DNA of 31,567 bases from positions 1 to 31,567 of IMG/VR virus record IMGVR_UViG_3300032238_001658; one strand, given 5' to 3'. This stretch comes from a virus. A program made the position numbers and the translations under genes. This document shows positions 4,441-31,096 of the stretch, one piece after another (the first letter of the stretch is position 1; the number at the start of each line of letters is the position of its first letter). A model generated the notes under the pieces. It made no database searches, was not told the DNA's origin, and saw nothing but the letters and a program-made list of their open reading frames with translations.

Positions 4441-4710
4441 TTAATCAACAGGCAACATTTCTGGATTTTCCAGTTCAAGTTCAAACAACATTGGATGACA
4501 CTCTTCATCAATCAAATAGAATGATGTCCTGTATAAATCCTCTGGTTCAAATCTTCTTTCTGTGTCTGCTAATTTGATTAATTCCAGATCATAAATTGAA
4601 TCATCTGGAAGTTCATCAAAAGTAAAAGGAACTTGATTTATAAAGTACATCAGAACAATTTGTGTTCCCTCATTATACCAACAATACCTGGCATCAATTC
4701 TGTACTTCAT
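4441..4710 (-). CDS. Small acidic unknown protein (89 aa)
   Basis: The protein starts MKYRIDARYCWYNEGTQIVL and is acidic in its second half (ELPDDS, DTERRFEPEDLY, ELELENPEMLPVD). No catalytic motif or membrane segment is visible. It looks like one of the small conserved proteins of early cyanophage regions, but I cannot name the family. Upstream, the ribosome-binding sequence AGGA sits in a 6-bp hairpin (TAGGAA/TTCCTA) that touches the ATG, so initiation may be modulated by local structure. The gene lies between the HNH endonuclease and tRNA-Thr and is followed by the tRNA after two bases, which suggests one transcript. Confidence 0.65.
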   Translation of the reverse strand: MKYRIDARYCWYNEGTQIVLMYFINQVPFTFDELPDDSIYDLELIKLADTERRFEPEDLYRTSFYLIDEECHPMLFELELENPEMLPVD

Positions 4711-4746: not shown

Positions 4747-5211
4747 TTAAGATTTCTTATTTTTACCTCTATATGTTTCTGTCTGCGCGTGGCAGTTTGG
4801 ACATAAGAGACGAAGGTTTTCTAAAGTATTATTGTATCGGTTTCCGTCAATGTGGTCAAGTTCTATTGGCGTAATTTTACCATTCCACTCAGTAATACCG
4901 CAACATTCACACTTGTATTGCTTTAGTCCTTCATTAATCAGACGTTTTTTTAAGTTATTTGATTGAACCAACCTATTTTCAACAAGATAAGTTTCAATAG
5001 GTTGTCTTTTAGGTAATTTTTTACCTTTACTCCACGCCTGTCCGTGAAAGTGTGTAGTGCTTAAATTAAGTTTTTTAATTCTTTCTTTAGCACATTGATA
5101 GTTTCCACCTGCTTCTCTCAAATTAAGTTTAGAAAGAACCTGTCGTAAACTTCCACTTTCTTTTACAACTTTTGCAAATTCTTCATCTGTATAATTTCTA
5201 GATTTTGCCAT
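4747..5211 (-). CDS. HNH homing endonuclease, free-standing, next to intron-bearing tRNA-Leu
   Basis: The C-terminal third is a clear HNH nuclease with zinc ribbon: CECCG near residue 99, then the motif ELDHIDGNRYNNTLENLRLL and CPNCH. The N-terminal part (residues 1-60, MAKSRNYTDEEFAKVVKESG...) is a helical DNA-recognition region ending in basic sequence (KGKKLPKRQ). Length 154 aa fits free-standing phage HNH enzymes. I place the start at ATG 5211; a TTG 12 bases earlier is in frame but lies inside a hairpin stem. The gene begins 46 bases downstream of tRNA-Leu on the same strand. Its start codon touches one arm of a 14-bp inverted repeat whose loop holds a late promoter. By analogy with the psbA-associated F-CphI of cyanophage, it may cut intronless tRNA-Leu genes; the target is not shown by the sequence. 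Confidence 0.88.
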   Translation of the reverse strand: MAKSRNYTDEEFAKVVKESGSLRQVLSKLNLREAGGNYQCAKERIKKLNLSTTHFHGQAWSKGKKLPKRQPIETYLVENRLVQSNNLKKRLINEGLKQYKCECCGITEWNGKITPIELDHIDGNRYNNTLENLRLLCPNCHAQTETYRGKNKKS

Positions 5212-5256
5212 AACGGTAAACAATAACTATAATTATTTATAAATTGTTTACCGTTA
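5211..5256 (-). repeat. 14-bp perfect inverted repeat enclosing a late promoter
   Basis: Arms 5211-5224 and 5243-5256 are perfect reverse complements (TAACGGTAAACAAT / ATTGTTTACCGTTA) with an 18-base spacer. The minus-strand spacer contains TATAAATA. The 3' arm ends on the A of the HNH start codon. RNA reading through from tRNA-Leu would form the hairpin, while RNA started at the late promoter would lack the 5' arm. Confidence 0.85.
5234..5241 (-). promoter_or_regulatory. Late promoter TATAAATA in hairpin loop (HNH gene)
   Basis: A perfect T4-type late motif on the minus strand, inside the loop of the inverted repeat. With T4 spacing, transcription would begin near 5228, about 17 bases before the HNH ATG, leaving out the 5' arm of the repeat. 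Confidence 0.65.
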
Positions 5257-5257
5257 A

Positions 5258-5538
5258 TGCGAGTAGGGAGACTTGAACTCCCACGGGCAATGCCCAACAG
5301 ATTTTCGTACCACTATAGTTTTCACTACCCTTTCGGTTTGTGGTCTGGACTATACCTTCACCATACCTTTCAGTTTAGGTGTTCCCCGTCTAGTCTCTAC
5401 ACCTTCATCTTACGATGCTTGGCTCGGTATTGCCATTTTAAAGGTTTCACCGAATTTGAGGAATTACACTCATAAGATTTCTCAAATGAGGCTCAATTTT
5501 CATAAGTCTGGTGTGTCTACCGATTCCACCATACTCGC
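5258..5538 (-). tRNA. tRNA-Leu (UAA) interrupted by a group I intron
   Basis: The exons are 5504-5538 (35 nt) and 5258-5305 (48 nt); joined they give an 83-nt class II tRNA. The acceptor stem is 7/7 (GCGAGTA/TACTCGC), the long variable arm is GGGC-ATT-GCCC, and the T stem and loop are GGGAG-TTCAAGT-CTCCC. The anticodon loop CTTAAAA gives UAA. The only irregularity is a C-U mismatch at the top of the anticodon stem (27-43). CCA is not encoded. The intron lies between anticodon U34 and A35, the position known for cyanobacterial and plastid tRNA-Leu(UAA). The mature tRNA would read UUA and UUG leucine codons. It follows a small gene and a terminator hairpin (5541-5564) and precedes an HNH endonuclease gene. 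Confidence 0.93.
5306..5503 (-). other. Group I intron (IC3-like) in tRNA-Leu, 198 nt
   Basis: The intron ends in G, and its internal guide GAG pairs with exon CUU, giving the obligatory U-G pair at the 5' splice site (P1, loop AUGAAAAUU). P2 is CUCAU/AUGAG. P4 is UUCGGU/ACCGAG followed by the conserved GCCAAGC. A minimal hairpin CAUC-GUAA-GAUG takes the place of the long variable region of the Anabaena intron. The guanosine-binding P7 core contains AGACUAGACGGG. The 3' part has AGUCC and two GAAA-capped hairpins (P9 region), and an outer CCAC/GUGG stem. No ORF is encoded in the intron. It is shorter than the 249-nt Anabaena homologue but core elements appear intact, so self-splicing is likely though untested. 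Confidence 0.9.
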
Positions 5539-5540
5539 AT

Positions 5541-5564
5541 AAAAAACTCAGAGAAGACTGAGTT
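5541..5564 (-). terminator. Terminator-like hairpin before tRNA-Leu
   Basis: A 7-bp stem AACTCAG/CTGAGTT (arms 5545-5551 and 5558-5564) with a 6-nt loop is followed on the minus strand by a run of six T. It covers the stop codon of the 59-aa gene and ends two bases before the tRNA. It may be a partial terminator or a processing site separating mRNA from tRNA. Confidence 0.6.
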
Positions 5565-23471: not shown

Positions 23472-23507
23472 ATAACAGAGATGTAAAATATAAATGAACT
23501 GTTATTA
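23470..23507 (+). repeat. 9-bp perfect inverted repeat enclosing the GIY-YIG start codon
   Basis: TAATAACAG (23470-23478) and CTGTTATTA (23499-23507) are exact reverse complements. The 20-base loop contains the ATG at 23494. Read-through RNA from gp4 contains both arms; RNA from the late promoter would lack nearly all of the left arm. Confidence 0.65.
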
Positions 23508-24141
23508 CACATATGCATATCTAAAAGAAGATGGCAAACCTTATTACATAGGTAAGGGTAAAGGATATAGATGTAATTATGGACATGGAAAAAATTGCAA
23601 TCCACCAAAAGATAGAAGTAGAATAATAAAATTAAAACAAAATCTTACAGAAGAAGAAGCATTTAAGCACGAAATCTATATGATTGCTGTGTTTGGTAAA
23701 AAATGTGATGGAACTGGTATTTTGATGAATATTGCAGATGGTGGAAACGCCCCACCCAAAATGTATGGTGATGCCAGCCCAACAAAAAGACCAGAAGTTA
23801 GAGTAAAAATAGGTGCTGCTCTAAAAGGTAGGAAAGGTAATATAGTTAGTTTAGAAACAAGACAAAAAATTTCAAAAACACACAGAGAAAGATTAAAAAA
23901 TAATCCAAGACCAATTTCTTATTATGTTGAGAATTTGAAAAAGATGGCGGAAAGAAATAAAATTGATAAAGGGAAGCATAAAAAGCATAGTGAATTTATG
24001 AAAAATCAATCTTATGCAGCAAAATCAGTGGAATATAATGATAAAATATATAAATCTATGACCGAAGCAATTAAAGAAACAGGACTTTCCAGATACTATA
24101 TTCTCAAGCAAGGTGGAAAATTCGTTAATAGTATCAAATAA
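23494..24141 (+). CDS. GIY-YIG homing endonuclease, full length (215 aa)
   Basis: The GIY-YIG domain occupies residues 1-95: CYYTYAYLKEDGKPYYIGKG, a conserved Arg region (GYRCNYGHGKN), the catalytic Glu in EEEAFKHEIYMIAVFGKKCD and the ILMNIADGGNAP motif. A Lys/Arg-rich DNA-binding tail follows with NUMOD-like repeats (RVKIGAALKGRKGN, LETRQKISKTHRERLKNNPR) and a C-terminal helix-turn-helix-like segment (YKSMTEAIKETGLSRYYILK). It is a free-standing Seg-type enzyme lodged between gp4 and the 130-aa gene; its TAA overlaps the next ATG as TAATG. Target is probably a neighbouring late gene of related phages lacking it, which is inference. Confidence 0.9.
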   Translation: MNCYYTYAYLKEDGKPYYIGKGKGYRCNYGHGKNCNPPKDRSRIIKLKQNLTEEEAFKHEIYMIAVFGKKCDGTGILMNIADGGNAPPKMYGDASPTKRPEVRVKIGAALKGRKGNIVSLETRQKISKTHRERLKNNPRPISYYVENLKKMAERNKIDKGKHKKHSEFMKNQSYAAKSVEYNDKIYKSMTEAIKETGLSRYYILKQGGKFVNSIK

Positions 24142-26034: not shown

Positions 26035-26703
26035 ATGCCAAGTTATTTCCGCCAGGTTCCAAATTTTGATTATGTTAGCAGACTACCAAATGCTAATATT
26101 GGAGATTATATTCCAGTAAAGAATATTTTCAAAAAAGGAAAACTTCGTGAAGATATTTTCCAAGACTTAGCATTTTTTGAAAAGTATAAAATCACAGGAA
26201 ATGATCGTCCCGATAATGTTGCCTTTGAAGTTTATGGAGATTCAACATTAGATTGGTTGGTTCTTCTCTGCAATAATGTAGTCAATATTCAAACAGAATG
26301 GCCACTCACACAAGATGCATTTGACAGATATGTGCTGAATAAGTATAGTGATTATGAAACTCTTTATAGTGGAATACATCATTACGAAACATCGGAAGTT
26401 ACAAATAGTCAAGGAGTCATTATGGTTCCTGGTGGATTAGAAGTTCCTGATGGTTATTCAATCAATTATTATGATTACTTTATTGATACACAAGTTGATA
26501 CTGGAAATATTGCAGTACCAGTTACCAATTATGAATATGAAGACAAATTAGAGAATGATAAAAGAAATATTTACGTTCTCAAACCATTCTATCTTAATAT
26601 TGTACTGAACGATATGGGAGATATTATGCCATACAAAAAAGGGTCCTCACAGTATGTTAGTGAAAATTTAGTTCGCGGCGATAATGTTAGACTTTACAGT
26701 TGA
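26035..26703 (+). CDS. 53: Baseplate wedge protein gp53 (222 aa)
   Basis: The N-terminal half is the gp53 family pattern: MPSYFRQVPNFDYVSRLPNA, NIGDYIPVKNIFKKGKLRED, NVAFEVYGDSTLDWLVLLCN and NVVNIQTEWPLTQDAF, where 'YG....DW..LL.NN..N...EWP' is the core motif. T4 gp53 is 196 aa and joins wedges into the hexagonal baseplate. The C-terminal part includes YEYEDKLENDKRNIYVLKPF, matching the wedge-binding tail. It is the last gene of the plus cluster and overlaps the convergent GIY-YIG gene by 17 bases in coding sequence. Confidence 0.88.
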   Translation: MPSYFRQVPNFDYVSRLPNANIGDYIPVKNIFKKGKLREDIFQDLAFFEKYKITGNDRPDNVAFEVYGDSTLDWLVLLCNNVVNIQTEWPLTQDAFDRYVLNKYSDYETLYSGIHHYETSEVTNSQGVIMVPGGLEVPDGYSINYYDYFIDTQVDTGNIAVPVTNYEYEDKLENDKRNIYVLKPFYLNIVLNDMGDIMPYKKGSSQYVSENLVRGDNVRLYS

Positions 26704-27337
26704 TTTCTTTTAATTTCTTCATTGCTTCTTTTGTTTTCTCTGATACCTTTTTCTTAAATTCTTCACTCATAGAAAGTCCTTTATTCCAAGGTATTTTTCC
26801 TTTAGTCTTTTCGCTAATATTTTTTCTTCTTAGTTCCAATATTTCTTCACTATAAATTCTATTTTTAGCAGCATCACTCATTCTTTTTTTGGTATCATTG
26901 CTTCTTTTTTTCCCTCTTATAGCATTACCAATTTTTATTTTAGTTTCATCACTCATTTTTCTATTTTTTGCCGCCAATCTCAATTTTATTTTTTGCTCCT
27001 CTGGCATTGGTTTTCTTTTTTTACAAGTTTTAAAAGAACCCTTTGACGGGACAAAACAAAACTTTGTAGAAGTTTGATAAGATCTGTTAGCAAAGTGTGG
27101 GTTCTCTACTACCTTATAATATCTCTGCAAAATAATTTCATCAGCATATGCTTCTTCTCTTGCAGCATAATCACTTTTGAGTATTATTTTTTGAGTTGGT
27201 TTGAAGTTCTTATCACTAAAAGAACCAAAATACTTTACATCTTCTTCAGGTAAGCATTTGCAGGTTCTTGATCCAAAATATCCTCTACCATATTCCTCAT
27301 AGGAATAATAGACATAGTGATACTCTTTGAGTTTCAT
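26687..27337 (-). CDS. GIY-YIG-family homing endonuclease with NUMOD3 repeats (216 aa)
   Basis: The N-terminus is a variant GIY-YIG core: EYHYVYYSYEEYGRGYFGSR, with the second motif YFGSR. The catalytic Glu lies in the helix DYAAREEAYADEIILQRYYK. From about residue 105, NUMOD3-like repeats follow: PMPEEQKIKLRLAAKNRKMS, DETKIKIGNAIRGKKRSNDT, KKRMSDAAKNR and SMSEEFKKKVSEKTKEAM. The length fits free-standing Seg/Hef-type enzymes. It lies between gp32 and the convergent gp53, whose last 17 coding bases it shares. Upstream it has a terminator, a late promoter and an inverted repeat ending next to its GAG ribosome-binding site, so it should be silent early and translated late. Confidence 0.85.
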   Translation of the reverse strand: MKLKEYHYVYYSYEEYGRGYFGSRTCKCLPEEDVKYFGSFSDKNFKPTQKIILKSDYAAREEAYADEIILQRYYKVVENPHFANRSYQTSTKFCFVPSKGSFKTCKKRKPMPEEQKIKLRLAAKNRKMSDETKIKIGNAIRGKKRSNDTKKRMSDAAKNRIYSEEILELRRKNISEKTKGKIPWNKGLSMSEEFKKKVSEKTKEAMKKLKEINCKV

Positions 27338-29689: not shown

Positions 29690-30359
29690 TTTGCCCAGTA
29701 TTGTGACGTACAAATTCTTTAATGTAGCGAACTAATAACTTAATATAATCCCCTTTGTTTCTTTTGTCAAATATTTTGACTTCACCACCAGGAGTTACCA
29801 TGATAGTAATAAGTTTAACTGGAACAATATTAGTCAGTTCATAATAAGCAGCAGCATAAAATGTTTCTTGTACAAAGTAATTTTCAATCCACTCTTCTGG
29901 TTTAATCTTATCTGAAGTCTTAAAGTCTATAACTGCAAGTTCTCCTTCATATTCAGCAATACAATCTACTCTTCCAGCGAGTCCAAAATATTCTGAATAT
30001 AAAGTCCTTTCAATTGCATGAATATTATTTATCTTATCAAGATAAGGTTTAGCATGAATGAACATAATCTTTGTCATTGGTTGGTAATTATTCCAATCCA
30101 ATTCTTTGTTCTCCAAATAGTCTTGACAGACTAGGTGAAAATCAGTACCTCTTGCTGTTGCTCTTTTAGTAATACGATTTGCTTCCTCAAGACCAACTCT
30201 TTGTCTCCATTTAACGAAGACTTCCCTGTTGAAAAAGCTTGTGACAGAAGTAATAGAAGGCACCCATTCTCCATTAGGTAGGTTATAGAGACGGATGCTT
30301 TCTGTTGTTTTACATTCCAATTCAATATCACCCAGATAATTATGATGAATAAAACTCAT
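29679..30359 (-). CDS. PD-(D/E)XK (RecB/MGME1-like) exonuclease (226 aa)
   Basis: The nuclease core is clear: a helix with RGTDFHLVCQDYLENKE (conserved His), then FGLAGRVDCIAEYEG (Asp) and ELAVIDFKTSDKIKPEEWIE (D-x-K), followed by YFVQETFYAAAYYEL with the QxxxYxxA motif of RecB-family enzymes. It probably degrades or processes DNA ends during replication, recombination or host DNA recycling. The protein sits between phoH and gp33, a usual place in T4-like cyanophages. It overlaps the GIY-YIG stop region by four bases, so an endonuclease gene has been inserted directly upstream. Confidence 0.85.
   Translation of the reverse strand: MSFIHHNYLGDIELECKTTESIRLYNLPNGEWVPSITSVTSFFNREVFVKWRQRVGLEEANRITKRATARGTDFHLVCQDYLENKELDWNNYQPMTKIMFIHAKPYLDKINNIHAIERTLYSEYFGLAGRVDCIAEYEGELAVIDFKTSDKIKPEEWIENYFVQETFYAAAYYELTNIVPVKLITIMVTPGGEVKIFDKRNKGDYIKLLVRYIKEFVRHNTGQNGE
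29742..29770 (-). promoter_or_regulatory. Possible sigma70-like promoter for gp33 (TTGACA-17-TATATT)
   Basis: Minus-strand TTGACA (29765-29770) and TATATT (29742-29747) are 17 bases apart inside the last third of the exonuclease gene. The predicted start near 29735 leaves a leader of about 46 bases before gp33. Confidence 0.5.
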
Positions 30360-31096
30360 TTATTTTTCCTTTTAAATTTAATTCTACCATAAGAAAATCC
30401 TTCTGGCAATTTTTCACTTGCAAAAATACAAGTTTCTATTTTTCCATCATTAATCCAAATTCTTTTAGGACGATTTTTTGCTTTTTCTTTTAATTTTTCA
30501 ATAGTTTCTGGTGAATGTTTTTTTCCATACATAGGATTATTTTTACCAGAAATATCATAATGATTTTCACTAATTTTTTTTCTTGTTTCTTCTGAAAGAG
30601 TTCTCCCTAAATTTATTTGTCGCAATTTTTCAATAGTTTCTGGACTAAATTTTCTACCAATTAACCAAGGTTTATTTTTTCCTTTTGAAGAGGCACTCAT
30701 TTTTTTCTTTGTTTCTTCTGTATGATTTTTGCCATACATACCAACTTTTTTTTCTTTATGGAGTTGTTTAACTCTTTCAGAACATTCTTGTCGATATTCT
30801 TCGGTAACTTCCCAACCAAAAATTCCATCACCACCATCAGTTAAATTATAACCATAAGGAACTTTAGTATTATACTTCTTAATATAATACTGTTCTAATT
30901 CATATGCTCTTCCAGCAGTATCAACTTCTTCAATTAATTCAATAAAAAACTTATTTTCACCATATTTTTTGATTGCTTCAGTTAAAAGAAATCCTCTTTT
31001 GGCGTGTTGATAAAATCTTTCGGTTATAGAAAATTTAGTTATTCCAACATACTGCTTTTTATTTTCAAAATTGGTAATTAAGTAAATATTATACAT
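30356..31096 (-). CDS. GIY-YIG homing endonuclease with NUMOD3 repeats (246 aa)
   Basis: The GIY-YIG domain is at residues 1-95: MYNIYLITNFENKKQYVGIT, ERFYQHAKRG (catalytic Arg), the Glu helix AYELEQYYIKKYNTKVPYGY and NLTDGGDG. NUMOD3 motifs follow: MYGKNHTEETKKKMSASSKG, GRKFSPETIEKLRQINLGRT, NPMYGKKHSPETIEKLKEKA, and a C-terminal PKRIWINDGKIETCIF segment typical of such enzymes. It lies between phoH and the exonuclease, an insertion point in an otherwise compact replication block, and overlaps the exonuclease start by four bases. A late promoter in the loop of an inverted repeat lies immediately upstream. Confidence 0.92.
   Translation of the reverse strand: MYNIYLITNFENKKQYVGITKFSITERFYQHAKRGFLLTEAIKKYGENKFFIELIEEVDTAGRAYELEQYYIKKYNTKVPYGYNLTDGGDGIFGWEVTEEYRQECSERVKQLHKEKKVGMYGKNHTEETKKKMSASSKGKNKPWLIGRKFSPETIEKLRQINLGRTLSEETRKKISENHYDISGKNNPMYGKKHSPETIEKLKEKAKNRPKRIWINDGKIETCIFASEKLPEGFSYGRIKFKRKNK

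Follow-up and report, generated by a model that had tools for sequence, protein, structure and literature searches.

A group I intron in a phage tRNA-Leu(UAA) gene beside a free-standing HNH endonuclease gene: a candidate for collaborative homing

Phages carry many tRNA genes, yet according to a 2014 review every phage group I intron known at the time lay in a protein gene (PMC3984707). The locus described here raises the question of whether a phage tRNA gene houses such an intron, where the intron comes from, and how it relates to the endonuclease gene next to it. The window, by which we mean the whole stretch of DNA analysed, comprises the 31,567 bases of a virus record. An earlier note, made from the letters alone, read one of its genes as a tRNA-Leu(UAA) split by a compact group I intron and regarded this as unusual for a phage. 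The review bears out that phage tRNA introns are little known, and our full-text literature search, covering open-licence papers only, turned up no description of a group I intron in a phage tRNA.

The gene lies on the minus strand and is built from three parts:

5504-5538, minus strand: 5' exon of tRNA-Leu(UAA), bases 1-34, with the intron directly after U34 (ARAGORN, intron option)
5306-5503, minus strand: group I intron of 198 nt, ORF-free, with its terminal G at 5306 (Rfam RF00028 and covariation)
5258-5305, minus strand: 3' exon of tRNA-Leu(UAA), bases 35-73, CCA not encoded (sequence reading)

Read on the minus strand, 5258-5538 displays everything the earlier note had described at this level, namely two exons, a perfect acceptor stem and a 198-nt insert that sits between bases 34 and 35 and ends in G. 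The acceptor stem (GCGAGUA...UACUCGC) comprises 7 bp; the sole imperfect stem position noted is C27-U43 in the anticodon stem, a mismatch common to many relatives with and without the intron. The covariance-model check that had been proposed gave a match to RF00028 at 5513-5324 on the minus strand, with 67.9 bits (E 2e-15) against a curated cut-off of 50 bits and over the full length of the model (1-253 of 253). This is the sole group I match to Rfam in the whole window. ARAGORN does not call the gene at 5538-5258 in default mode, and calls it as a split tRNA once introns are allowed. Only 1 of 200 shuffles folds as well as or better than the spliced tRNA-Leu, whose predicted minimum-energy fold is short of the full cloverleaf. 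The intronless tRNA-Leu of S-TIM5 and the spliced tRNA of the window share 96% identity. At the sequence level, we regard the presence of a group I intron in this tRNA-Leu(UAA) gene as almost certain.

Comparison with relatives reveals how the intron has been maintained. Two pairings of its predicted fold are invariant:

5492-5506, minus strand: P1, formed by exon CUU (5506-5504) and guide GAG (5494-5492), with U34-G at the splice site; invariant in 46/46
5348-5395, minus strand: P7, formed by GACUA (5395-5391) and UAGUC (5352-5348); invariant in 46 relatives

We aligned 46 distinct phage introns from the same site and counted pairs on a hand-derived P1-P9 structure. Predicted pair cells are paired in 96.0% of cases versus 85.8% in shuffles, and sliding the structure by 1-3 columns leaves 29-43% of cells paired (33-38% for one column). 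Compensatory cells, in which both sides have changed, number 254 versus 80.5 in shuffles, and the covariation score is 0.316, a value reached by 0/500 shuffles, versus 0.121 in shuffled alignments. Double changes occur in 23 pairs of the structure, covariation being present wherever the columns vary; neither P7 nor the splice-site U-G nor the terminal G varies among the 46 introns. The elements first recognized in the single sequence (P1 with its U-G, P2, P4, P7 and the GAAA-capped P9 hairpins) agree with this alignment. The intron is under selection, and its conservation suggests that it is probably self-splicing.

The carrier is a phage, as had been assumed from the outset. The locus is surrounded by T4-like genes for the baseplate hub, tail tube, tail-tube cap, baseplate wedge and end protector, and further T4-like neighbours encode the single-strand binding protein (gp32), the helicase loader (gp59) and PhoH. 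Host contamination or misassembly is ruled out by these genes and by the synteny common to relatives. The best isolate matches of the hub protein are in cyanophages S-SM2 and Bellamy (44-50%). Proteins of the Photo_RC (psbA/psbD) type occur in 8 of 40 sampled contigs that bear the HNH gene or the intron, 6 of them intron carriers. Because several such contigs encode photosystem proteins, the intron-bearing phages are probably cyanophages; a cyanobacterial host is likely, the Photo_RC evidence coming from related contigs and not from the window. The window also contains three more homing-endonuclease-like genes (PHROG 314), at 23494-24141, 26687-27337 and 30356-31096.

Outside the coordinates of the earlier note, and absent from it, is a gene that starts about 35 nt 3' of tRNA-Leu:

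4747-5223, minus strand: free-standing HNH endonuclease gene, 158 aa from TTG 5223 or 154 aa from ATG 5211 (Pfam HNH; PHROG 10822, E 6e-53)

The HNH motif and the zinc Cys residues are intact and invariant across all arrangements compared; none of the solved structures is informative for the protein. We chose 80 IMG/VR loci by HNH similarity alone. In 74 of these, the HNH gene follows a UAA tRNA, identified by a call or by eye, at a distance of 20-41 nt, and about 20 of the 74 tRNAs contain the intron. Three further loci end at the contig edge, and 2 of them still show the intron and 3' exon. The gene occurs in several arrangements: 3' of an intronless UAA tRNA in most loci that have it, 3' of a split tRNA in the window, and just 5' of a split tRNA in L078. 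Two homologues lie within the intron. A 595 kb phage (LR756511.1, L083) has a 700-nt tRNA-Leu(UAA) intron that encodes, on the sense strand, an HNH protein 49% identical to that of the window, and L079 carries its homologue antisense. Other homologues are found beside tRNAs of other kinds in Gordonia, Pseudomonas and Enterococcus phages. In members of a second phage intron clade (L108, L131, L137, L145, L165, L171, L173), the split tRNA-Leu is preceded by an HNH-like gene or fragment whose end lies about 130 nt upstream of it.

Natural alleles provide a second view of both elements, taken from an independent anchor:

4441-4710, minus strand: PHROG 4134 gene, a conserved neighbour that lies directly after tRNA-Leu where HNH is absent and so marks the HNH empty site

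Surveyed from this gene, the syntenic locus holds neither element in 61 cases, the intron alone in 6, both in 2 and HNH alone in 11. At one and the same site the HNH gene is present in some alleles and missing from others, the empty site being the tRNA/PHROG 4134 junction, and it is thus optional; a free-standing HNH gene here adjoins an intron-bearing gene, and both elements are optional. Empty sites of the intron are found in 11 of the 61 loci that lack both elements, where a window-type tRNA (at least 80% identity) has an intact CUUAAAA. In L353, L354 and L372 the exons of such empty sites are 93-96% identical to those of the window, and intronless alleles this close at the same locus indicate that the insert is optional and precise. 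Window-type tRNA is present in none of the 11 loci with HNH alone, nor in the 58 such loci of the first sample (identity at most 73%). The intron-type anticodon stem, RGACTTAAAATCY, is found by distinct tRNA in 3/33 intronless loci with HNH versus 15/31 with neither element (p = 0.0007, uncorrected for kinship), and by distinct stem-loop in 1/22 versus 5/16, likewise uncorrected; the three HNH-linked intronless tRNAs that have it are those of L002, L006 and L052. The rarity of intron-type stems fits the exclusion of a cuttable site, and limits that P1 pairing sets on the intron alone could contribute.

The intron has also changed its surroundings. In L188 it is 96% identical to that of the window, whereas the tRNA body around it reaches only 53% identity and has a short variable arm, a discrepancy from which we infer that introns moved between differently built UAA tRNAs. 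On the HNH tree the intron state changes about 10 times, an approximate figure since L158 and L160 are labelled intronless though their contigs carry the intron. Many HNH-linked UAA tRNAs have class I bodies of 73-75 nt with a short variable arm, versus the long arm expected for tRNA-Leu (L003, L004, L017, L029, L055, L074, L115, L188 and others), many of them with G1-U72. Similar class I UAA tRNAs are annotated as tRNA-Leu in P-SSM7, P-RSM6 and Streptomyces phages.

Between the tRNA and the HNH gene lie two predicted control elements:

5211-5256, minus strand: regulatory hairpin, a perfect 14-bp inverted repeat with arms at 5256-5243 and 5224-5211 (fold z = -7.4)
5234-5241, minus strand: TATAAATA, a match to the T4 late-promoter consensus in the hairpin loop (TAAATA in relatives)

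The stability of the hairpin is matched by 0/200 shuffles, and the two HNH starts, TTG 5223 and ATG 5211, fall within its 3' arm or at the end of that arm. In 54 distinct loci, TAAATA is present in 51, versus 22% of shuffles, and sits in the loop in 45. The strong repeats among these loci have 35 distinct 3' arms, so it is the pairing that is kept and not the sequence. No Shine-Dalgarno is obvious in the region before the HNH start, and the hairpin would hence hide the start codon itself. For I-TevI, segB and mobE, the early RNA hides the ribosome-binding site and the late RNA is made without the 5' arm (PMC2988022). A terminator-like hairpin with a T run (CUCAGUCUUCUCUGAGUUUUUU, 5541-5562) ends directly before the tRNA 5' end, and one is found before the tRNA also in L128, L178 and L002.

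Several known systems resemble parts of this locus. Bacterial tRNA-Leu(UAA) introns (cyanobacterial trnL and alphaproteobacterial) have the same tRNA, U34/A35 site and core, whereas the intron of the window is phage-borne, 198 nt long and HNH-linked, and the cyanobacterial ones are distant from it. The endonuclease of a cyanobacterial tRNA-fMet intron has a nuclease fold other than HNH. Where PMC3984707 cites Bonocora and Shub 2001, it presents that enzyme as a homing endonuclease specific for the tRNA anticodon region, intron-encoded and bacterial, unlike the free-standing phage HNH of the window. In S-PM2, F-CphI is likewise a free-standing endonuclease by an intron-bearing cyanophage gene, psbA, with optional elements and collaborative homing (PMC6083498); here, the target is a tRNA gene, the family is HNH and not the Endo VII motif, intron-encoded versions exist, and cleavage is putative. 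T4 SegB is also free-standing, tRNA-linked and under hairpin and late-promoter control (PMC2988022; PMC13096335), but it is a GIY-YIG enzyme without an intron and with no fixed tRNA isotype, whereas the HNH of the window is tied to UAA tRNAs. The mobE gene and the defunct intron of T4-like phages (trans homing; PMC2988022) share HNH and hairpin control with the locus, for which we likewise propose mobilisation in trans, although that system concerns a protein gene and this one a tRNA gene.

Collaborative homing, a process described for psbA and nrd genes, is in our judgement the best explanation of the locus, and on balance a probable one. It is supported by the linkage of HNH to the tRNA, the mobility of the intron, the four allele states, the hairpin with its late promoter, and the F-CphI/psbA precedent. 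An early read-through RNA would splice itself with a guanosine cofactor and yield a tRNA that reads UUA, which makes up 30% of Leu codons here; in early RNA, the HNH start would be hidden by the hairpin. Late RNA begun at TATAAATA would lack the 5' arm and allow HNH to be made. During mixed infection, HNH would cut or nick, close to the intron site, the intron-free tRNA-Leu gene that a related phage brings along; repair would copy the intron and HNH across, while the carrier's own gene would be shielded by the intron or by a divergent tRNA. Movement of the HNH gene into the intron would produce a composite mobile intron. The components of this proposal differ in strength: homing of HNH at the tRNA-Leu locus is likely, and cleavage at the intron site with true collaboration is plausible, the balance tipping at most slightly in its favour.

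The intron and HNH could instead be independent elements at a common hotspot, with the intron spreading by co-conversion with its flanks or by reverse splicing. Most loci with HNH are intronless, so that HNH needs no intron, and many introns have no HNH nearby (e.g. L178, 99% identical), which argues against collaboration, as does the presence of RGACTTAAAATCY in the HNH-linked intronless tRNAs of L002, L006 and L052. The HNH gene lies beyond the tRNA 3' end, with its empty site at the PHROG 4134 junction, and has homologues beside other tRNAs; its target might be the tRNA 3' end. These points are countered by the homologues within the intron (LR756511, L079), which suggest a target near the intron site, and by intronless tRNAs that are never window-type where HNH is present. 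We consider independence possible but doubtful. That splicing has been lost and the tRNA is a dead gene, as the C27-U43 mismatch might suggest, is scarcely credible given the compensatory changes in 23 pairs and the invariant core, splice-site U-G and terminal G, and given that many relatives, intronless ones included, have the identical mismatch. Extending collaborative homing, we tentatively picture the UAA tRNA gene of aquatic phages as a battleground, in which an HNH family would aim at the anticodon region, a mobile ribozyme would shield the gene and travel with it, class I UAA tRNAs would offer escape, and all stages from two elements to a composite intron would survive; this broader picture is rather speculative.

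The source of the intron is a separate matter. The earlier note had the phage pick it up from, or exchange it with, cyanobacteria in shortened form. It correctly placed the insert at the site of the cyanobacterial trnL-UAA intron, between bases 34 and 35, and the probable hosts, judged from Photo_RC genes on several intron-bearing contigs, are cyanobacteria, both points in favour of its reading; the relationships among introns point elsewhere. Scans with a core pattern gave at least 120 viral and at least 119 bacterial matches, and tRNA-Leu(UAA) introns make up 66/120 and 63/119 of the matches listed. In a tree of 119 distinct tRNA-Leu(UAA) introns from phages and bacteria, a long branch (1.14 changes per column, 100/100) sets the 12 sampled cyanobacterial trnL introns off as a separate clade, and the rows nearest to the window intron are phage only. 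Among the introns listed, the best identity to it is 99% in phages, 74% in Acidobacteriota, 73% in Pseudomonadota (alphaproteobacterial) and 67% in Cyanobacteriota, the cyanobacterial median being 64%; the closest same-site bacterial introns listed are thus alphaproteobacterial and acidobacterial. The best six matches in 291 cyanobacterial genomes have other exons (CAU-anticodon tRNA where readable), none being at the Leu site, and no close trnL intron was found in this sample. In 289 genomes from the class of an alphaproteobacterium, 3 of the 6 best matches were called as introns of tRNA-Leu(UAA), and the exons of a fourth are of Leu type. For the introns sampled, the separate clade, the lower identities and the lack of Leu-site matches disfavour transfer from cyanobacterial trnL to phage, and we hold capture from the host to be highly improbable. 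AU tests with constrained clades did not reject phage and cyanobacterial introns on one side of a branch, and favoured no single deep order among phage, cyanobacterial and proteobacterial introns. One genome labelled Legionellaceae (L314, a Tatlockia MAG) has a cyanobacterial-type trnL intron within the cyanobacterial clade, probably through contamination.

Such introns are frequent in phages and usually unannotated. We found intron-bearing tRNAs in cyanophage-like contigs, in phages of 595-735 kb and in isolates. The genome of the isolate Atu_ph07 has a split tRNA-Leu(UAA) where its record has no tRNA feature, and the paper on it counts 33 tRNAs and does not contain the word "intron". Uncultured phage records LR756501 and LR756511, which we take to be records of the huge-phage paper, have split tRNA-Leu genes; that paper does not use the word either. 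Because ARAGORN misses split tRNAs by default, phage tRNA counts are probably too low. In an isolate, Gordonia phage Daredevil (NC_048021.1, L346), a 238-nt insert whose core is group I-like interrupts a tRNA-Lys(UUU) that lacks annotation. Group I-type cores in predicted phage tRNA-Arg(UCU), CAU-anticodon tRNA and tRNA-Thr genes (L117, L119, L109, L151, L159, L183) suggest that introns in phage tRNA genes extend beyond Leu. With one HNH family found free-standing, adjacent and intron-encoded at one intron site, the proposed birth of mobile introns becomes directly testable.

Around some other introns related by sequence, no split tRNA was found; these introns belong to the isolates pYD6-A, AD45-P1, Vibrio 1.187.O and 249E41-1, Kolpuevirus and HTVC120P and to the uncultured phage cr116_1. 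Judged by annotated neighbours, several of these probably lie in protein genes. In Pelagibacter phage HTVC120P (L084), the related intron, at 75% identity, is located between two CDS annotated as capsid proteins.
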